This document shows positions 16,133 through 49,410 of a stretch of 64,000 bases of DNA, piece after piece (the stretch's first letter is position 1; each line of letters begins with the position of its first letter). The notes beneath the pieces are model-generated. The model ran no database searches. It was not told where the DNA came from and worked only from the letters and a program-made list of their open reading frames with translations. A program made the translations under genes and the position numbers. This DNA comes from Martelella lutilitoris (lineage in GTDB: Bacteria > Pseudomonadota > Alphaproteobacteria > Rhizobiales > Rhizobiaceae). The stretch spans positions 186,001 to 250,000 of the forward strand of contig NZ_VCLB01000008.1 in assembly GCF_005924265.1 (NCBI RefSeq), in the 5' to 3' direction.

Positions 16133-18106
16133 TTACGCCAGAGCGCGCTTGCGCTTCAGATCCGGCGGCGTCGCCTCGTCGGTCAGCATGGCGATCGCGT
16201 CGGCAAGCGACATCGATTGCTGATCGCGCGAGCCGAGGCGGCGGATATTGACCGCTTCGTCTTCCGCCTCGCGCATGCCGCAGACGAGAATGACCGGCAC
16301 CTTGGCCAGCGAATGCTCGCGGACCTTGTAGTTGATCTTCTCGTTGCGGAAGTCGGTCCCGACCGAAAGACCGGCAGCGCGCAGCTTCTCGGCAACCTTG
16401 CGGCCGTAGTCATCGGCTTCCGAGGTGATGGTCGCGACCACCACCTGCTGCGGCGCGAACCACAGCGGCATATGGCCGGCGTGGTTCTCGATCAGGATGC
16501 CGAGGAAGCGTTCCAGCGAACCGCAGATCGCGCGGTGGACCATCACCGGCTTTTTCTTCTCCGACGTCGAGTCGATGTAGAATGCGCCGAAGCGTTCCGG
16601 CAGGTTGAAGTCCACCTGGGTGGTGCCGCACTGCCATTCCCGCCCGATCGCATCCTTCAGCGTATATTCGAATTTCGGCCCGTAGAAAGCGCCCTCGCCC
16701 GGCAGGATGCCGGTCTTGATCCGCCCGCCGGACTGCGCCTCGATCGTCTTCAACACCTCGGTCATGATCGCTTCGGCGTGATCCCAGTTCTCGTCCGAGC
16801 CGACGCGTTTTTCCGGACGCGTGGAGAGTTTGACGACGATCTCGTCGAAGCCGAAATCCTCGTAGACCGAGAGGATCAGGTCGTTGATCTTCAGGCATTC
16901 CTCGGCAAGTTGCTCCTCAGTGCAGAACACATGCGCATCGTCCTGGGTAAAACCGCGCACGCGCATCAACCCGTGCATGGCGCCCGAGGGCTCGTAGCGG
17001 TGCACGACGCCGAACTCAGCATAGCGGATCGGCAGTTCGCGATAGGACTTCAGCCCGTGCTTGAACAGCTGAACATGGCCGGGGCAGTTCATCGGCTTCA
17101 GCGCGAAGACGCGCTTGTCCTCGGCTTCCTCATCGGCGCAGGCAACGGCGAACATGTTCTCGCGGTACCATTCCCAGTGGCCGGAGGTCCGCCAAAGGGC
17201 CGTATCCAGCACCTGCGGCGCGTTGACCTCCTCATACTCGCCCTCGAGACGACGACGCATATAGGACGTCAGCGACTGGAACATGCGCCAGCCCTTGGAA
17301 TGCCAGAATACGACGCCGGGGCCTTCTTCCTGAAAATGAAACAGGTCCATCTCGCGGCCGAGCCGGCGGTGGTCGCGCTTTTCCGCCTCCTCAAGAAAGT
17401 TGAGATAGGCATCGAGCTGCTGCTTTTCGGCCCAGGCCGTGCCGTAGATGCGGGTCAGCATCGGGTTGTTGCTGTCGCCGCGCCAATAGGCGCCGGCCAC
17501 CTTCATCAGCTTGAAGGCATCGCCGATCTGCCCGGTGGAGGTCATGTGCGGACCGCGGCACAGGTCGAACCAGTCGCCCTGCGCATAGATCTTCACGTCC
17601 TGGTCTTCCGGGATCGCATCGACAAGCTCGACCTTGTAGACCTCGCCCTTCTCGGCGAAGACATGCTTGGCCTTCTCGCGCGACCACACCTCCTTGGTGA
17701 AGGGGGCGTTGCGCTTGATGATCTCCTTCATCTTCTTCTCGATCTTCGGCAGATCGTCGGGCGTGAAGGGCGTCTCGCGGGCGAAATCGTAATAAAAGCC
17801 GTTCTCGATCACCGGACCGATGGTCACCTGCGTTCCCGGCCATAATTCCTGCACGGCTTCGGCCATCACATGGGCGCAGTCGTGGCGGATCAGCTCCAGC
17901 GCGCGGTCATCGGCGCGGGTGACGATCTCGATGCGGCCGTCCTCGACCGGGTCGGCGAGATCGCGCAATTCGCCGTCAAGGGCAATCGCGACGGCTTTCT
18001 TGGCGAGCGATTTGGAGATTGACTCGGCAACGTCGCGGCCAGTCGTGCCGGCGGCGTAGTCGCGCTTGGAGCCATCGGGGAAAACGAGGGAAATCTGATC
18101 AGACAT
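16133..18106 (-). CDS. thrS: Threonyl-tRNA synthetase
   Basis: The enzyme charges tRNA-Thr in the cytoplasm. The 657-residue protein has the N-terminal TGS domain (starting [12 protein letters not shown]), the editing domain with [10 protein letters not shown] and the class-II catalytic core, including [10 protein letters not shown] and RYAEFG. The C-terminal anticodon-binding domain ends the protein. The ATG used is preceded by an AGGAGA ribosome site; the upstream extension of the frame is not needed. The gene stands alone, with a terminator on each side. Confidence 0.97.
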
Positions 18107-29455: not shown

Positions 29456-29513
29456 CCTAGCCCTTGGTCAGCGCCGGTCTCGTCACGGCGCGACAAGGGG
29501 TCGGGAGGAGAAG

Positions 29514-30683
29514 ATGACGATTGCACATGCAGCCATTATCGGCGCCGGCATTTCGGGCCTGACAGCCGCGCTGGCGCTCGCCCGCCACGGGATCTCCAGC
29601 GAGATCTTCGAGCAGGCCGATGCGCTTGCCGAAGTCGGCGCCGGCCTGCAGGTTTCTCCCAACGCCTCGCGCTGCCTGGCGAAGATCGGCGTGCTCGGCC
29701 GGCTCGAGGGCCAGTGGCGGGAACCGAAGAAAGTGGCGCTGGCCTCGGGCCTGACCCTCAGGGAACTCGCGCATGTCCCCGTCGGCGAGGCGCGCAAGCG
29801 CTGGGGCGCGCCCTATGGCACGCTGCACCGCGCCACGCTGCAATCGGCGCTCAAACACGCCGTTGCCGATGAGCCGCTCACGACGCTGCGCCTCGGCACC
29901 CGCATCGACAAGGCAAACAGGGCAACGCTTTCCGGCAGGACGGAAAAGCCCGCCGATGTCATTATCTGCGCCGACGGCGTGTGGTCGCACAGCCGCCGGC
30001 AGATCAAGGGCGCGCCGGAAGCGCGCTTTTCCGGCAATATCGCCTGGCGTTTCGTGCTCTCCTCGGAAGACGCGCCCGGCTTTCTGGAGCGAGACAGCGT
30101 CACCGCTTTCATGGGGCCGATGGCGCATCTCGTGGCCTATCCGCTGCGCGATGTCGGCGGCTTCAACCTCGTCGCCATCGCCGCCGGCGCCAGCGCCGGG
30201 GAGGCCTGGCACACCGAGGTCGATAGCAGCTGGAAGATGGCGCTGGAGCGCCACTTCAAGGGCTGGAGCCCCGAACTCACCCGGCTGTTTTCCGCCGACA
30301 AGCCGACCTTCTGGCCGCTCTATGAGGTGGGAGAAGGCAACTGGCACAATGGCAGCGACACGATTGGGATCGGCGACGCCGTCCACGCGCTGATGCCGTT
30401 TTCCGCGCAAGGGGCGGCCATGGCGATCGAGGACGGTTTCGAGCTGGCGGCCTTCCTGGCCACCATGGAAGCGCCGCAGGCCTTCGAAGCCTTTGTTGCC
30501 CACCGCAAGCCGCGCCTTGCGGCGCTGCGCAAGCGCACCAGCTTCAACAAGTTCGCCTATCATGCCTCAGGCCCGATGAGAATCGGACGCGACATCGTGC
30601 TGAAACTGCGTTCGCCTGATACGCTCGCGCACGAACTCGACTGGCTTTACGGCTATCACGCCTACGGTCTCGACCGGTTCTGA
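29514..30683 (+). CDS. FAD-dependent monooxygenase (salicylate-hydroxylase-like)
   Basis: The 389-residue protein is a class-A flavin monooxygenase. The N-terminal dinucleotide fold reads IIGAGISGLTAALALAR, the middle has the FAD/NADPH-contact ICADGVWS, and the second FAD motif is GDAVHALMPFSAQGAAMAIED. It would hydroxylate an aromatic or similar substrate using NAD(P)H and oxygen; the substrate is not apparent. The start has a strong GGGAGGAG site. The open frame continues upstream across the zf-CHCC gene in a different frame, which is not coding. Confidence 0.9.
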   Translation: MTIAHAAIIGAGISGLTAALALARHGISSEIFEQADALAEVGAGLQVSPNASRCLAKIGVLGRLEGQWREPKKVALASGLTLRELAHVPVGEARKRWGAPYGTLHRATLQSALKHAVADEPLTTLRLGTRIDKANRATLSGRTEKPADVIICADGVWSHSRRQIKGAPEARFSGNIAWRFVLSSEDAPGFLERDSVTAFMGPMAHLVAYPLRDVGGFNLVAIAAGASAGEAWHTEVDSSWKMALERHFKGWSPELTRLFSADKPTFWPLYEVGEGNWHNGSDTIGIGDAVHALMPFSAQGAAMAIEDGFELAAFLATMEAPQAFEAFVAHRKPRLAALRKRTSFNKFAYHASGPMRIGRDIVLKLRSPDTLAHELDWLYGYHAYGLDRF

Positions 30684-33241: not shown

Positions 33242-34270
33242 ATGAAAAAGACGCTTCTGTCTGTCGCTCTCGGCGCAGCAGTCTTCGGTCTTGGGGTCCA
33301 GGGTGCTTCGGCCGCGACGCTCGATGACGTCAAGGAAAAGGGATTTGTCACCTGCGGCGTCAGCACGGGCCTCCAGGGCTTTTCCGCGCCTGACAGCGAA
33401 GGCAACTGGTCCGGTCTCGACGTTGACTATTGCCGCGCCATCGCAGCTGCGATTTTCGGCGATCCGTCCAAGGCCAAGTTCGTTGCTCTGACCGCCACCG
33501 ACCGCTTTCCGGCTCTTCAGTCCGGCGAAGTCGATGTGCTGACGCGCAACACCACCTGGACGCTTTCCCGCGACACTTCGCTGGGCCTCGATTTCCGCAC
33601 CGTCAACTACTATGACGGCCAGGGCTTCATGGTTCCGAAGGATCTCGGCGTATCGTCCGCCAAGGAGCTTTCCGGCGCTGCTGTCTGCGTCCAGTCCGGC
33701 ACCACGACCGAGCTGAACCTCGCCGACTACTTCTCCTCGAACGACATGGAATACAACCCGGTTGTCTTCGAAGCCCTCGAAGACGTCAACAACGCCTTCA
33801 ACCAGGGCCGTTGCGACGTTTACACGACCGACCAGTCCGGCCTTTATGGCATCCGTCTGACCCTTTCGGACCCGGACAACTACGTCATTCTGCCGGAAAT
33901 CATCTCCAAGGAACCGCTTGGTCCGGCATGGCGCCAGGGCGATGACCAGTGGGGCGACGTCGTCTCCTGGGTCCATTACGCCATGGTCAATGCCGAAGAA
34001 TTCGGCATTACTTCGGAAAATGTCGACGAAATCGCTGAAACCTCGGACAATCCGGGAATCAAGCGCCTGCTCGGCACCGAGGAAGACGGCAAGATGGGCG
34101 CCGATCTCGGTCTCGACGAAAAATGGGCCTACAACATCATCAAGACCGTCGGAAATTACGGCGAGATCTTCGAATCTGATGTCGGTCAGGGCAGCGAGCT
34201 GAAGATCGAGCGTGGCCTCAACGCCCTGTGGACCAATGGCGGCCTGCAGTACGGCCCGCCGATCCGCTAA
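33242..34270 (+). CDS. aapJ: General L-amino-acid ABC transporter, periplasmic binding protein
   Basis: AapJ captures a broad range of L-amino acids in the periplasm for the AapQMP importer. The 342-residue product has a Sec signal peptide ending GASA, then the family-3 solute-binding fold: GVSTGLQGFS, GLDVDYCRAIAAAIFGD, FPALQSGEVDVLTRNTTWT and GRCDVYTTDQSGL. A good ribosome site (AAGGTTGGGAA) precedes the ATG. It is the first gene of the aapJQMP operon and is separated from aapQ by 100 bases with a strong hairpin. In rhizobia this operon matters for amino-acid exchange during symbiosis and for general nitrogen nutrition. Confidence 0.95.
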   Translation: MKKTLLSVALGAAVFGLGVQGASAATLDDVKEKGFVTCGVSTGLQGFSAPDSEGNWSGLDVDYCRAIAAAIFGDPSKAKFVALTATDRFPALQSGEVDVLTRNTTWTLSRDTSLGLDFRTVNYYDGQGFMVPKDLGVSSAKELSGAAVCVQSGTTTELNLADYFSSNDMEYNPVVFEALEDVNNAFNQGRCDVYTTDQSGLYGIRLTLSDPDNYVILPEIISKEPLGPAWRQGDDQWGDVVSWVHYAMVNAEEFGITSENVDEIAETSDNPGIKRLLGTEEDGKMGADLGLDEKWAYNIIKTVGNYGEIFESDVGQGSELKIERGLNALWTNGGLQYGPPIR

Positions 34271-44406: not shown

Positions 44407-46979
44407 AGAACGCCAGCATACCACGCGACAGGCGTTCGACGATCAGGCTCTACACGGCCCTGACGATCCTGTTCTTTGCGACGTTGGCTGCGGGAACGGT
44501 ATTCGGTGGGCTGGCCGTTCGCGATGCGATCCGCCAGGAGCGCCAGGAACAGGCCGAAGCCCGGGCCGAAGGCTTCGCCAAGGCGCTGAAATCGGTTCTC
44601 AAGTTGACCGACAATGTCGGCCAGGCGCTTGCCGAGAGTTTCGACGAGGGTGGCCTTGAGGGCTATGACACATCCGTTGACACCTATCTGGCCTCCGCGC
44701 CGTGGACGAAGGCAGTCATCCTCAACCGCGACGACGCCACACGCGTTTCGCCGCAGGACCTTTCGGCCACCATGCGCGAGCTTCCGGTTCCCGCCGAGGA
44801 TGTTGACCAGCGAAAGATCTTCGGGCCCTTCAGGCTGCCGAACGGAGAACGGATCCTCGTCTATCGCTATGTGTTCGATGCGGGAAACATGGAACTCGTC
44901 GTCGGCTTCGAGGCGATCCTCGAGGCTGTCGGCCTTCTGGAGCTTGAGGAGACGACCCAGCTCAGCGTCACGACCGTTGCCGCACCGGGCCCCGACGATC
45001 GCGCCGTCGCCGGCGAAAGCGACCTCCCCGTGGAGGACGCGATCCGGCAGGACGTGCGCGTCGACAACGCGACATGGACGATCAGCGTAGCGCCGCGCGC
45101 GCTTTCGGATGGCCTGTTCGACTGGGGCCGGGCGTTCCGGCTCGCCGGCGGCTTACTGGTCCTGATGTTTGTCGCGCCCTTCATCGCCTTGCTGCTCCTG
45201 TTCCGCGCGCGTCTCAGGGACAATATCAATATCCGCCGCAGCATGATGGCCGTCGACAACCTTTCGCGCCATCTCGACGTTGCCCTCAATGCTTCGAATA
45301 TCGGGCTTTGGGAACATGATCTGGAAACCGACATCCAGATCTGGGACGACCAGATCCTGAGGATCTACGGCATTGAGGGAGAGAGCCATGTTCAGACGTT
45401 CGAGAGCTGGCGCGCCAGGCTGCATCCCGACGACCAGGAACGCTTCCGCCGTTTCAGCTGGGAGGACGCGGAGAACGAGAACGGTTTCCTGACCGAATAC
45501 CGCATCATCACGCCCGAGGGGCAGGAGAGGACCATTCGCTCTGCCGGCAACGCCTATCGCGATGCCGACGGCAAGCGCAAATTTGTCGGCGTCAACTGGG
45601 ATGTTTCCGCCGACAAGGCGCTGCAGGAGGCGCTGGCGGACGCCAAGGCAAGGGCGGAAGAACAGAATGTCGCGCTGGAAGAGGCCCGCGCCCGCATGGA
45701 AGAGATCGCCCTGCAGGACACGTTGACGGGCATACCCAACCGACGTCATTTCGAAAAGCGACTGGCAGCCGCCCAGGGCGGCGGCGCCATGCCGGAAGGC
45801 ATGAACATCGTGCTGATCGACCTTGACGGGTTCAAGACCATCAACGACACGATGGGACATTTCTTCGGCGACGACGTTCTGCGCTACGCGGCCGAAACAT
45901 TCATGAAGAACCTCGGCCCCGACGACTTCCTGGCGCGCACCGGCGGCGACGAGTTCGTCGCCCTGATGCCGGCGACCAGCGATGTCGAGGCCTTCGCGAC
46001 AACCGTCACCGCCGCTTTCTCCAAGCCGCTGCGCATTGACGGACGCTCCTGCCGCCTGGGCGTCAGTCTCGGCATTGCCACGGCCGAGGATTCCGCCGAT
46101 ACGGCTTCGGACCTCCTGATCAAGGCGGACCTTGCGCTCTACGAGGCCAAGAACCGCGGGCGCGGGCGCACGGTGAACTATACCAGCAACCTGATGGCCA
46201 AGACCTTCTCGTTGAAACGTCTGGCCGACGAGCTGCAGGAGGCTGTCGAGAACGGAGAGATCATCGCCCACTACCAGCCGATCTTCGATGTCAGGACGTC
46301 AGCGATCATCGGCGTTGAAGCGCTCGTCCGCTGGCAGCATCCGCGACGGGGCGTGTTGGAGCCCAAGGCCTTTCTCGATGTGGCCGAGCAACTCGGCCTG
46401 CTGCATGCGATCGATGACACTGTCTTCAGGAAGGCGGTCGCGGTCATCGACCACGCCAAAGCGGCGGGCGTTCCGCTTCCCGGCATCTCGGTCAACATCT
46501 CCTCGCAGCGCCTTCGCGACCCGCTGCTGCTCGACCAACTCGCCTCGTTTGACCTTCCGCCGGGCACGGTTCATTTCGAACTGCTGGAGTCGATCCCCTT
46601 CGACCGGCCCGATACCGCATTGATCAAGACGGTCAATGCCATCAGGAAACTCGGCATCGGCATCGATCTTGATGACTTCGGCTCGGGCTATGCCTCGCTC
46701 GTCGGCCTCAACCAGGTGCGCCCCGACCGGCTGAAGATTGCGGGCCAGCTGATTGCACCGATCACCGGATCGGAGGAGAGCCTCCAGATCGTCGAGACGA
46801 TTGTGCGCATCGCGCGGACCTTCAACATCGGCGTCATCTGCGAGGGCGTGACCTCGAAGGCGCACTACAAGAAGCTGGAAGCGCTCGGCTGCTTCCTGCA
46901 GCAGGGCTACTATTTCTCGCGCCCGATGGATGAGGACCAGTTCATCGCCTTCATGCGCACGCGCAACGGCCTCGACTGA
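44394..46979 (+). CDS. Membrane GGDEF-EAL protein with CHASE-like sensor and PAS domain
   Basis: This 861-residue protein is predicted to control c-di-GMP. It has a first membrane helix (about 17-40), a periplasmic region of about 200 residues, a second helix (about 245-268), a PAS domain (about 290-405), a short coiled coil, GGDEF (about 435-595, with intact GGDEF at 517) and EAL (about 610-850, with EAL at 642, ELLES and DDFGSGY). Both catalytic signatures are intact, so it may make or degrade c-di-GMP. The PAS and periplasmic parts probably sense a signal. Its EAL domain is a paralogue of the truncated gene at the left edge. The ribosome site is weak. Confidence 0.92.
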   Translation: MALLKNASIPRDRRSTIRLYTALTILFFATLAAGTVFGGLAVRDAIRQERQEQAEARAEGFAKALKSVLKLTDNVGQALAESFDEGGLEGYDTSVDTYLASAPWTKAVILNRDDATRVSPQDLSATMRELPVPAEDVDQRKIFGPFRLPNGERILVYRYVFDAGNMELVVGFEAILEAVGLLELEETTQLSVTTVAAPGPDDRAVAGESDLPVEDAIRQDVRVDNATWTISVAPRALSDGLFDWGRAFRLAGGLLVLMFVAPFIALLLLFRARLRDNINIRRSMMAVDNLSRHLDVALNASNIGLWEHDLETDIQIWDDQILRIYGIEGESHVQTFESWRARLHPDDQERFRRFSWEDAENENGFLTEYRIITPEGQERTIRSAGNAYRDADGKRKFVGVNWDVSADKALQEALADAKARAEEQNVALEEARARMEEIALQDTLTGIPNRRHFEKRLAAAQGGGAMPEGMNIVLIDLDGFKTINDTMGHFFGDDVLRYAAETFMKNLGPDDFLARTGGDEFVALMPATSDVEAFATTVTAAFSKPLRIDGRSCRLGVSLGIATAEDSADTASDLLIKADLALYEAKNRGRGRTVNYTSNLMAKTFSLKRLADELQEAVENGEIIAHYQPIFDVRTSAIIGVEALVRWQHPRRGVLEPKAFLDVAEQLGLLHAIDDTVFRKAVAVIDHAKAAGVPLPGISVNISSQRLRDPLLLDQLASFDLPPGTVHFELLESIPFDRPDTALIKTVNAIRKLGIGIDLDDFGSGYASLVGLNQVRPDRLKIAGQLIAPITGSEESLQIVETIVRIARTFNIGVICEGVTSKAHYKKLEALGCFLQQGYYFSRPMDEDQFIAFMRTRNGLD

Positions 46980-47174
46980 TCGAGCCGACGCTCCCTAATT
47001 CTTCGGCAGAGAAGACGCCGCGAGACATGCGGCATGCGCCGAGCGCATACCTTGTATGCCGAGATGGCACTGCAAATTTCCGGCTCGGACGCGTATATAA
47101 GGATCAACAGAGTGATTGAGCAGAGATCAAAACGGTTTGACAGAAGCTCAGTGACTTGGCCCGGTCCCCGGGTT

Positions 47175-47306
47175 TGAAATTCGAAGCCGCGCACTCCTCC
47201 TCCTCCGAGCGCGCTTCGATGGGTTGACGACGCTCCTCCTCCCAGTCGTCGACCAACGCAAATGACGCTCACCGGATCCTCCTCCCCCGGTGAGCGTTAT
47301 TTTTTT
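47175..47306 (+). ncRNA. Alpha-r14 (NfeR1-type) small RNA with three anti-Shine-Dalgarno loops
   Basis: Three consecutive hairpins are visible. Hairpin 1 pairs 47181-47192 with 47209-47219 and has a CTCC-repeat loop (47193-47208). Hairpin 2 pairs 47222-47231 with 47245-47254 and exposes CCTCCTCCC (47235-47243). Hairpin 3 pairs 47265-47275 with 47287-47297, exposes CCTCCTCCC (47278-47286) and runs into TATTTTTTT, forming the terminator. Exposed CCUCCUCCC loops in successive hairpins define the rhizobial alpha-r14 family, whose S. meliloti member NfeR1 represses ABC-transporter and other mRNAs by covering ribosome sites. The 5' end is estimated; a TTGACA lies upstream at 47137. Confidence 0.85.
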
Positions 47307-47593
47307 GTGCGATGCACACTCCCGATCCAACCCATTGCGCATCCCAGTCTTGTGAAACCGGTCTCGCCCATTGTCCGATGACGCCCGGAATTCACGACAC
47401 GTATCAACCTTTCAATAGCGATTCTGCTCGCTGTCGCAGCGTTTACAGACCCTCTCCCGCATTGCCATGCGCGAAACGCATAGCGGCTTTACCGCAAACC
47501 CACTGACCGAGACCGAAGGCAAGGACTATATCCCGGTCATCAGAGATTGAGGCGCAGGAAATCGAAGCGCCGCAGCAAACAGGAGAGAGTAAT
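47307..47593. other. Leader region of the first DUF1127 gene
   Basis: This 287-base gap follows the small RNA. I see no strong ORF with a ribosome site; a 27-codon frame at 47467-47550 lacks one. The region probably holds the promoter of the DUF1127 gene, but no clear hexamer pair stands out. Confidence 0.35.
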
Positions 47594-47737
47594 ATGAGCA
47601 TGGCTCGTTCGTTCAACAACTGGATCAAGTATCGTCAGACCGTTTCGGAACTCGGCCGCATGAATGCGCGCGAACTGTCCGACCTCGGCATCAACCGCGA
47701 AGACATCCGTCGCGTTGCCCGCAAGGCAGCATTCTAA
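47594..47737 (+). CDS. DUF1127 mini-protein, first copy
   Basis: This 47-residue protein ends in the DUF1127 signature: LGRMNARELSDLGINREDIRRVARKAAF. The N-terminal half (SMARSFNNWIKYRQTV) is amphipathic and basic. DUF1127 proteins in alphaproteobacteria are RNA-binding or regulatory mini-proteins tied to phosphate, carbon and sRNA pathways. An AGGAGAGAG ribosome site supports the start, and a perfect terminator follows. A second DUF1127 gene of the same length lies 280 bases downstream. Confidence 0.9.
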   Translation: MSMARSFNNWIKYRQTVSELGRMNARELSDLGINREDIRRVARKAAF

Positions 47738-47761
47738 GCGCTGCCTTTCCCAACCTTGCAA

Positions 47762-47798
47762 AAGCCCCACGCCCAACCAGGCGCGGGGCTTTTTTTTG
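47762..47798 (+). terminator. Terminator after the first DUF1127 gene
   Basis: A long GC-rich stem (47762-47772 region paired with the GGCGCGGGGCTT arm) with a six-base loop runs directly into eight T residues. Confidence 0.9.
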
Positions 47799-47887
47799 AG
47801 CAGGCACTGATTGCGAAAAGCAGACTTGACGCTTGTCATGCGCAGAATGCCTCAAAACTATGCGATGCCATAGACCTGCACCGATAT

Positions 47888-47932
47888 TGTGCTATCTAGT
47901 GCACAAATGCATGGCAGTTGCATAATAACTGC
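47888..47932. promoter_or_regulatory. Two short inverted repeats upstream of the second DUF1127 gene
   Basis: TGTGC (47888-47892) and GCACA (47901-47905) flank an 8-base centre, and GCAGTT (47914-47919) and AACTGC (47927-47932) flank a 7-base centre. They lie 85-130 bases before the ATG, in an AT-rich stretch, and could be operator half-sites. Confidence 0.35.
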
Positions 47933-48017
47933 ACACGACGCATTGCCGTTTTCCTTGTATTCTCCCGGCCAAAATCAACACAGCACAACGCTGCCGGACA
48001 AATTCGAGGAAACACCC

Positions 48018-48161
48018 ATGCATCCCTTCGACTTCACCATGAAATGGTTCAGCTACCGCCGCACGCGCTCCCAGCTGCGCAACCTTACCGCCGAAGAGCT
48101 CAAGGATATCGGCCTGCTGCCGGGCGATATCGATCGCGTTGCTGCTCGCGCTTTCCGCTGA
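48018..48161 (+). CDS. DUF1127 mini-protein, second copy
   Basis: The 47-residue product has a different N-terminus from the first copy (HPFDFTMKWFSYRRTRSQL) but the same C-terminal signature: LRNLTAEELKDIGLLPGDIDRVAARAF. The ATG at 48018 is preceded by GAGGAAA; the frame is open further upstream but without a ribosome site. Having two DUF1127 genes beside an sRNA of the anti-Shine-Dalgarno class fits a regulatory locus. It is followed by a terminator-like hairpin. Confidence 0.88.
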   Translation: MHPFDFTMKWFSYRRTRSQLRNLTAEELKDIGLLPGDIDRVAARAFR

Positions 48162-48185
48162 GATAATACCCGCACTGAATTTGCC

Positions 48186-48209
48186 AACGGCGCCGCGTGG
48201 CGCCGTTTT
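48186..48209 (+). terminator. Terminator after the second DUF1127 gene
   Basis: A perfect 9-bp stem (48186-48194 with 48199-48207, loop GCGT) ends in TTTT. Confidence 0.7.
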
Positions 48210-48297
48210 GCGTTTCGGCGGATGTCGCGGTGCTTGCCTTCCAAAACGCAGCGATTATGTTGGGGCCCCTTCTCGCAGCAACCGGACGACGCACAGC

Positions 48298-49410
48298 ATG
48301 GCCGCATTCCCGCGCTTTACCTCTCTGATCAAGGAACTGCCATCCACGGTCCCCTTTGTCGGACCCGAAGCGCTGGAGCGCAGCCGCAACTACCCGATCA
48401 TCGCCCGTATCGGCGCGAATGAGAGCGGCTTCGGACCCGCACCGTCCGTGCTTGCGGCGATCCGCGAGGCCGCCGGCGACATCTGGAAATATTCCGATTC
48501 CGAGCATCTGTCGCTGCGCAAGGCCCTTGCCGATCATCACGGCTGCAAGCCGGAAAACCTGATGATCGGAGAGGGCGTCGACGGACTCCTGGGCATGGCT
48601 GTCAGACTGGTCGTCTCGCCGGGCACGGTCGTCGTCACCTCGCTCGGCGCCTATCCGACCTTCAACTACCATGTCGACGGGTTCGGCGGAAAACGGGTGA
48701 GCGTCCCCTATGCGGGCGACAAGGAAGACCTTGATGCGCTGATGGCGGCGGTGAAGGAACATGACGCGACCATGGTCTATTTCGCCAATCCCGACAATCC
48801 GATGGGCAGCTTCTGGCATGAGGACGATGTTATCCGCTTCGTCGAGGACCTGCCGGAGACCTGCATGATGGTGCTGGACGAGGCCTATTGCGAATGCGGC
48901 CCGGCGGAGGCCTTTCCGGCGATCGACCGTTTTCTCGACCGGCCGAACGTCATGCGGTTCCGCACCTTCTCCAAGGCCTATGGGCTCGCCGGTGCGCGCG
49001 CCGGCTACATCATCGGCGAGGCCGAGACGATTTCCGCCTTCAACAAAATCCGCAACCATTTCGGCATGCCGCGCCTGACGCTGGTTGCTGCGGAGGCAGC
49101 GCTTGCCGACCAGGCCTATCTTCAAAGCGTTGTCGGACGCATCCGCGAATCGCGCGACGAGATCGCCCGGATCGCCCGTGACAACGGCCTGGAGCCGTTG
49201 CCCTCGGCGACGAATTTCGTCGCCATCGATTGCGGCAGGGACGGCGCCTATGCGCGCGCCATCGTCGATGCGCTCGGCGCACGCGGCGTCTTCATCCGCA
49301 TGCCGGGCGTCGCGCCGCTTGACCGCTGCATCCGCGTTTCGACCGGTCCGAGCGAAGACATGGACCTCTTCGCGCAGGAACTGCCGTCCGTGCTCCAGGC
49401 GCTTGGCTGA
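48298..49410 (+). CDS. PLP-dependent aminotransferase, HisC-like
   Basis: The 370-residue protein is a class-I/II fold aminotransferase most like histidinol-phosphate aminotransferase. It shows GANESGFGP, a GEGVDGLL loop, YFANPDNPMGS, VLDEAYCECG with the aspartate that contacts the PLP ring nitrogen, and FRTFSKAYGLAGARAGY with the Schiff-base lysine. The substrate is not certain; rhizobia have several HisC paralogues. The ATG is chosen over an upstream extension that runs into the DUF1127 gene. It is convergent with the GST gene. Confidence 0.86.
   Translation: MAAFPRFTSLIKELPSTVPFVGPEALERSRNYPIIARIGANESGFGPAPSVLAAIREAAGDIWKYSDSEHLSLRKALADHHGCKPENLMIGEGVDGLLGMAVRLVVSPGTVVVTSLGAYPTFNYHVDGFGGKRVSVPYAGDKEDLDALMAAVKEHDATMVYFANPDNPMGSFWHEDDVIRFVEDLPETCMMVLDEAYCECGPAEAFPAIDRFLDRPNVMRFRTFSKAYGLAGARAGYIIGEAETISAFNKIRNHFGMPRLTLVAAEAALADQAYLQSVVGRIRESRDEIARIARDNGLEPLPSATNFVAIDCGRDGAYARAIVDALGARGVFIRMPGVAPLDRCIRVSTGPSEDMDLFAQELPSVLQALG

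Follow-up and report, generated by a model that had tools for sequence, protein, structure and literature searches.

The described systems closest to the locus analysed here are NfeR1 of S. meliloti, the CcsR1-4/ccaF1 locus of Rhodobacter sphaeroides and the AbcR small RNAs. The loops of NfeR1 are reported to pair with the start regions of mRNAs and to silence them redundantly, to repress ntrB at its start region and to act on translation independently of Hfq (PMC10746234). LsrB activates NfeR1, and the LsrB site in the NfeR1 promoter was given as TGCA-N6-GCAT at -72 to -60 (PMC10746234). The abcR genes are also published targets of LsrB/VtlR (PMC7486931, PMC10746234), many genes were reported to be affected by lsrB deletion in Agrobacterium (PMC11975290, PMC7486931), and VtlR of Brucella is described as activating abcR2 together with three DUF1127 genes (PMC12595884). 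The pairing of a DUF1127 gene with a cuckoo RNA is the published association of the CIN1 locus, and the promoter of the ccaF1-CcsR operon is reported to be RpoHI/RpoHII-dependent (PMC10253847). Both the RNA family and its association with DUF1127 genes are already known.

The window (the whole 64-kb stretch of DNA that was analysed) was searched with the Rfam covariance models and ar14 (RF02344) was found to be the only family reaching its threshold, with a score of 94.6 bits against a cut-off of 58.8 (E 4.8e-16) and with the model covered end to end (positions 1-123 of 123). The initial annotation had assigned this locus to the alpha-r14/NfeR1 family and had proposed the ar14 search. The score, the covarying stems, the conserved loops and a promoter box of the NfeR1/LsrB kind all bear out this assignment; of the wider interpretation the family stands, but the start and length of the transcript and the targets aapJ and thrS are not supported. 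We consider it very probable that the locus is an αr14 (cuckoo/NfeR1) small RNA gene which is activated by a LysR-type regulator, blocks ribosome sites with its loops and ends at its third hairpin. The features are listed in the table.

Table. Features of the ar14 locus and its DUF1127 neighbours (window positions; aSD, anti-Shine-Dalgarno).
Feature	Positions	Strand	Basis
TGCG-N6-GCAT box, LsrB-like	47035..47048	+	Genus alignment and published site; putative binding
-10-like TATATA, exactly 45 nt past the box	47094..47099	+	Alignment; predicted start ~47106
5' leader, two hairpins without C-rich loop (47110-47157, 47158-47174)	47106..47180	+	Folds; predicted transcription
ar14 (RF02344) core of small RNA	47176..47302	+	Rfam score, fold, conservation, covariation
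aSD hairpin 1, loop containing CCUCCUCCUCCG	47181..47219	+	Fold and loop comparison
aSD hairpin 2, loop containing CCUCCUCCC	47222..47254	+	Fold and covariation
aSD hairpin 3, loop CCUCCUCCC, plus U-tract (intrinsic terminator)	47260..47306	+	Fold and covariation
Second box-N45-TATA promoter, before first DUF1127 gene	47468..47530	+	Box scan
DUF1127 small protein gene, 47 aa	47594..47737	+	PF06568, 52.6 bits
Second DUF1127 gene, 47 aa, without box-N45-TATA of the shared type	48018..48161	+	PF06568, 38.1 bits (genome search)

The minimum free energy of the ar14 RNA is -58.9 kcal/mol, compared with -32.5 +/- 2.9 kcal/mol for 200 shuffled sequences (z -8.97, no shuffle as low). Three successive hairpins are formed in this fold and, as had been annotated, each exposes a loop of the CCTCC type. 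All three loops contain CCTCCTCC, where loops 2 and 3 carry the exact CCTCCTCCC and loop 1 carries CCTCCTCCTCCG; likewise, the test for anti-Shine-Dalgarno loops found CCUCCUCC in 3/3 loops of the window RNA and the exact CCUCCUCCC in two of them. The window holds 10 occurrences of CCTCCTCC where 2.9 are expected, and four of these (two overlapping) are located inside 47196-47285. The hairpin at 47260-47302 is followed by the U-tract TTATTTTTTT, in agreement with the earlier proposal that hairpin 3 doubles as a terminator. It was absent from the output of the terminator scanner, whose loop limit is 3-8 nt, the loop of hairpin 3 being 11 nt long.

Matches to ar14 above the cut-off were found in 37 of the 61 genomes searched (own genome included, with three copies) and in 0/14 control genomes. 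For the neighbouring aminotransferase gene, the nearest named loci belong to Martelella (97% and 92% identity), to a genome labelled Marinicella sp. W31 (89%) and to another Martelella (70%). Covariation was assessed on an alignment of 39 of the 40 genus copies (36 distinct), in which 93.8% of the cells are paired. Changes on both sides were observed in 17 of the 37 stem pairs, compared with 11.5 +/- 1.5 in shuffles, none of which was as high, and with 2-6 double-changed pairs when the partners were slid by 1-3 columns. The covariation score was 0.327 against 0.193, whereas further pair types numbered 33 in the same test, under the 36.5 of the shuffles, which counts against covariation. The ar14 region is a structured RNA. 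Loop conservation in related genomes, on which the initial annotation depended, was also observed, as the C-rich loops are kept while the stems change. The exact nonamer is present in only two loops in 7/61 copies examined, the window copy among them, and this copy is the only one of 13 genus orthologs without three exact nonamers.

Some further observations were made on the copies themselves. Among the genus paralogs, hairpin 3 is nearly invariant with 10/16 pairs never varying (alignment A3), whereas 8/10 pairs of hairpin 2 have changed on both sides; structure alone is insufficient to explain this difference. A family member with a genome of 1.1 Mb still has one ar14 match (G018:C2:250697-250814), which at 61.7 bits exceeds the cut-off. 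Rows of ar14-like matches, some of them overlapping or below the cut-off, occur at G032:C23:266514-267184, where four follow a DUF1127 gene and resemble the CcsR1-4 layout, and at G035:C12:149477-150162, where there are at least five. In addition, a tandem array that repeats every ~445 nt, each unit consisting of a box, a DUF1127 gene and a weak ar14-like RNA (47-50 bits), was noticed near contig ends at G008:C54:25-1021 and C48:173-391 and is apparently a recent amplification.

The two adjoining DUF1127 genes that had been annotated were both recovered, on the same strand and 3' of the small RNA. A same-strand DUF1127 gene within 1 kb was found for all 40 genus copies over the cut-off and for at least 75 of the 97 copies over the cut-off in the 61 genomes, the latter count being a lower bound with at least the rows G019:C1:468037 and G036:C3:1341199 left out, which by their position change no class. 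No DUF1127 gene among the matches listed for these genomes lies on the other strand at less than 1 kb from ar14. Among the matches listed, the DUF1127 gene lies upstream only in 15 genus copies, on both sides in 12 and downstream only in 13. The window copy has the downstream-only arrangement, which was found once per genome in 13 genomes.

The likely action of the RNA is repression by Shine-Dalgarno pairing, as for NfeR1. Candidate targets were taken from the pattern GGGAGGAG-N3-12-ATG, which describes ribosome sites with 8-nt complementarity to the loops and gave 51 matches (two sites doubly listed, one antisense to an ar14 copy) against 11 in the backward control. ORFs shorter than 150 aa were dropped, leaving 37. 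Pfam was run on 34 of them, and L256, L264 and L265 were counted as non-binding proteins judging from their sequence. Solute-binding proteins make up 13 of these 37 ORFs (>=150 aa) compared with 1/16 behind AAGGAGGH-N3-11-ATG, a strong but less loop-complementary ribosome site for which the first 30 loci of 95 matches were used and 16 ORFs kept; both sets include ATGs within or antisense to genes. The enrichment is modest (one-sided Fisher p 0.026) and the control small. The 13 ORFs comprise DctP (5), Peripla_BP (3), SBP_bac (3), TctC (1) and NMT1_3 (1), and the set also holds MmgE/PrpD, a citrate synthase-type protein and three GFO/IDH/MocA oxidoreductases. This candidate set fits both the predicted target class of NfeR1 and a role in restraining uptake and carbon use.

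Two of the targets proposed earlier within the window, aapJ and thrS, appear unpromising. The gene starting at 33242, which we take by eye to be aapJ, has the ribosome site AAAGGTTGGGAAAATG, where the longest run complementary to the loops is GGGA, and the gene starting at 18106 on the minus strand, presumably thrS as read by eye, has the ordinary AGGAG alone (5 nt). Both were rejected as special targets on the basis of these sites. The many AGGAGG-like sites that had been put forward as target evidence do not discriminate between genes, since every strong ribosome site looks much like the loop complement and can pair with any C-rich loop. The only window gene with an 8-nt loop match at its ribosome site (29503-29516) was observed to be a FAD_binding_3 monooxygenase starting at 29514.

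This unspecific pairing potential would also suit an RNA that titrates a protein (e.g. the DUF1127 protein) or ribosomes, not one that pairs with particular mRNAs, and so would the constant pairing of ar14 with DUF1127 genes and the reported binding of RNA by CcaF1 (PMC10253847, PMC12501420). However, NfeR1 with all three loops mutated is reported to no longer repress ntrB (PMC10746234), and the sites with the long complement are enriched here for one protein class. We regard titration as rather unlikely, and pairing with ribosome sites as the preferred reading.

A conserved block was observed in 13 aligned orthologs of the window copy, located in the window ~80-140 nt upstream of the RNA core. 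It would represent a promoter at 47035-47099, which the coordinates of the initial annotation leave out. TGCR-N6-GCAT is present in 13/13 of these orthologs (exact TGCA in 6/13) and the spacing between box and TATA is constant at 45 nt in all of them. The window box, TGCG-N6-GCAT, differs by one letter from the published LsrB site of the NfeR1 promoter and overlaps the dyad GCATAC-CTT-GTATGC (47045-47059); its centre lies at ~-65 relative to the predicted start. Among 38 of the 40 genus copies, the box was found in 38 and the TATA at exactly 45 nt in 37 (UD_G003 being without it), and the two copies left out (L137 and the second copy in L146) both show the full pattern in the genome scan. The predicted start is placed by the -10-like element; no match to a consensus sigma-70 promoter was found in 46900-48300. 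A sigma-70 promoter directly before 47175 was rejected for lack of such a match, and no conserved promoter block was observed there.

A LysR gene (C13:246823-247734) was found between trxB and two abcR (ar15) genes, and this trxB-LysR-ar15-ar15 order matches the reported setting of vtlR in Brucella melitensis (PMC12595884). We infer from the gene order that it is the LsrB/VtlR ortholog and the putative binder of the box. In the mechanism that we propose, this activator would bind the box at 47035 and turn on transcription at ~47106, giving an RNA of ~200 nt, perhaps trimmed to ~125, which would terminate at hairpin 3. The three C-rich loops would then pair with long GGGAGGAG-type ribosome sites and block translation, with solute-binding protein genes forming the largest class of repressed genes.

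Where a copy has a DUF1127 gene upstream, the promoter stands before that gene. The two sister copies in the own genome start 47 and 62 nt past a match to the DUF1127 domain and have the order promoter-DUF1127-ar14 under the same promoter type; therefore, the small RNA and the DUF1127 protein would rise together. With the box standing before the DUF1127 gene, these sister copies suggest that the window RNA might also be a processed 3'-UTR product cut from a longer mRNA, similar to CcsR1-4 and without a promoter of its own, as published for CcaF1/CcsR of Rhodobacter (PMC10253847). In the window copy, however, no DUF1127 gene was found within 1 kb upstream among the matches listed, and the box and -10 element are located directly before this type of copy in 13/13 orthologs, which makes a 3'-UTR origin distinctly unlikely. 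It is very improbable that the region is mainly a terminator, an attenuator or the 5' UTR of the downstream DUF1127 gene instead of a trans-acting RNA, since that gene, although it lies on the same strand 301 nt downstream of a hairpin able to terminate and attenuation is reported for a DUF1127 gene of S. meliloti (PMC12218461), has its own box-N45-TATA, 15/40 genus copies are without a downstream DUF1127 gene within 1 kb (among the matches listed) and the loops are kept while the stems change.

The box-N45-TATA pattern, which the small RNA shares with DUF1127 genes, is rare elsewhere in the genome. Seven sites were found in the own genome against 0 in the backward control, and 82 in the 13 genus genomes against 2. 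Of the latter, 51 lie before DUF1127 genes ("before" meaning up to 600 nt, with two sites at 437 and 442 nt), 13 directly before ar14, 13 before a gene for a 55-aa protein and five have no assigned gene. In total, 64 of the 82 precede ar14 or DUF1127 genes, and the 13 that precede ar14 occur one per genome, each at the ortholog of the window copy. The box was observed before 4/7 DUF1127 genes of the own genome. Outside the genus, any site of the strict pattern was found in 11/24 other genomes of the family and 9/24 genomes of the order. The abcR promoters of the own genome gave no strict match in the whole-genome scan; since lsrB deletion in Agrobacterium is also reported to affect many genes, the pattern describes a single promoter type rather than every LsrB site. 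At C5:9681 in the own genome, the site lies across long ORFs of both strands and was taken as a chance match.

The second DUF1127 gene follows an apparent strong terminator at ~47757-47797, which was read by eye and is absent from the scanner output, and several TGCA dyads are found upstream of it. This gene is without the box and located behind the apparent terminator, and therefore it probably has a different promoter. The class of sites before neither ar14 nor DUF1127 genes was considered as AbcR and rejected, as cmscan found no ar15 there and the 55-aa gene follows instead. This small protein occurs once per genome in the 13 genus genomes, behind box-N45-TATA at 13/13 such sites (G000:C13:221506-221866, i.e. 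L187:3007-3366, and L275-L286). It aligns with DUF1127 given a six-residue insertion; a Pfam search at E 0.01 found no family for it, and none in NCBIfam scored above its cut-off.

A transcript of 110-135 bases ending near 47306 had been expected by the initial annotation. This does not fit the conserved promoter, which predicts that the RNA probably starts at ~47106 and is ~200 nt long unless processed. The predicted leader places ~75 nt ahead of the first aSD hairpin. Leaders were cut to run from the position matching 47104 up to the first aSD stem, and all 11 distinct genus leaders, which differ in sequence and in length (47-81 nt), were found to form two hairpins without C-rich loops when each was folded alone (z -2.2 to -5.4). 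The support for these hairpins consists of single-sequence folds, alignment A2 being out of register in the second hairpin, where an inner G-C pair was read by eye as C-G in 2/11 leaders. Extending the 13 genus leaders by 10 bases 5' changed the fold of one (G011), and in several full-length folds the first leader bases pair with the 3' end of the RNA. No conserved reading frame was found in the genus leaders. A small coding gene was rejected here: some orthologs have an open GTG frame but others lack its start, no ribosome site precedes the GTG and the length differences are not multiples of three.

In the sister copies, a DUF1127 ORF occupies the place of the leader. In three copies of other genera (n_G029b, D2_G015 and D_G021) the box is located only 52-54 nt from the core, and therefore at least two layouts exist, the long leader being one of them. 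A tentative scheme, which we regard as less likely than not, is that the Martelella RNA is a five-hairpin derivative of ~200 nt of a promoter-DUF1127-ar14 operon where the coding part was replaced by a structured leader. Under this scheme box-N45-TATA would serve almost wholly anti-SD RNAs and DUF1127-type proteins, both under one LysR activator and together acting on nutrient uptake. The leader would then mark the spot where a protein gene and a small RNA leader may have swapped places.

The fresh parts of this analysis are the two-hairpin leader and the promoter pattern common to ar14 and DUF1127 genes, both of which are predictions. In the literature searched, no paper was found combining DUF1127 and NfeR1, and Martelella was not named among the best matches of a search on such small RNAs, DUF1127 and LsrB. 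A small RNA system known from a legume symbiont is thereby carried over to another genus within the family, and two separate lines of research, the CcsR/DUF1127 pairing and the LsrB-NfeR1 circuit, are joined. If the shared promoter motif is real, loss of one regulator should silence the small RNA and its DUF1127 partners alike.

Among the known systems, AbcR1/AbcR2 (ar15, RF02345; two copies in the own genome) are reported to be LsrB/VtlR-activated and to act on transporter mRNAs (PMC7486931, PMC10746234) but belong to another Rfam family. Their genes are located elsewhere, next to the LysR gene, and have promoters outside the strict pattern. The CcsR1-4/ccaF1 locus of the CIN1/cuckoo type resembles it in having CcsR-like RNAs beside short DUF1127 genes on one strand, and its promoter-DUF1127-sRNA order is that of the two sister copies; the window copy, in contrast, lies ahead of its DUF1127 genes, behind a promoter motif of its own with an LsrB-like box. 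NfeR1 (αr14; Smr14C2, SmelC397) has the same three hairpins, CCUCCUCCC loops and terminator hairpin, several copies per genome and an LsrB-type box ~65 nt before the start, which is predicted in our case. By table coordinates NfeR1 is 122 nt long (PMC7143759) and therefore has no room for a long leader, whereas the window RNA has a predicted 5' leader of ~75 nt with two more hairpins.
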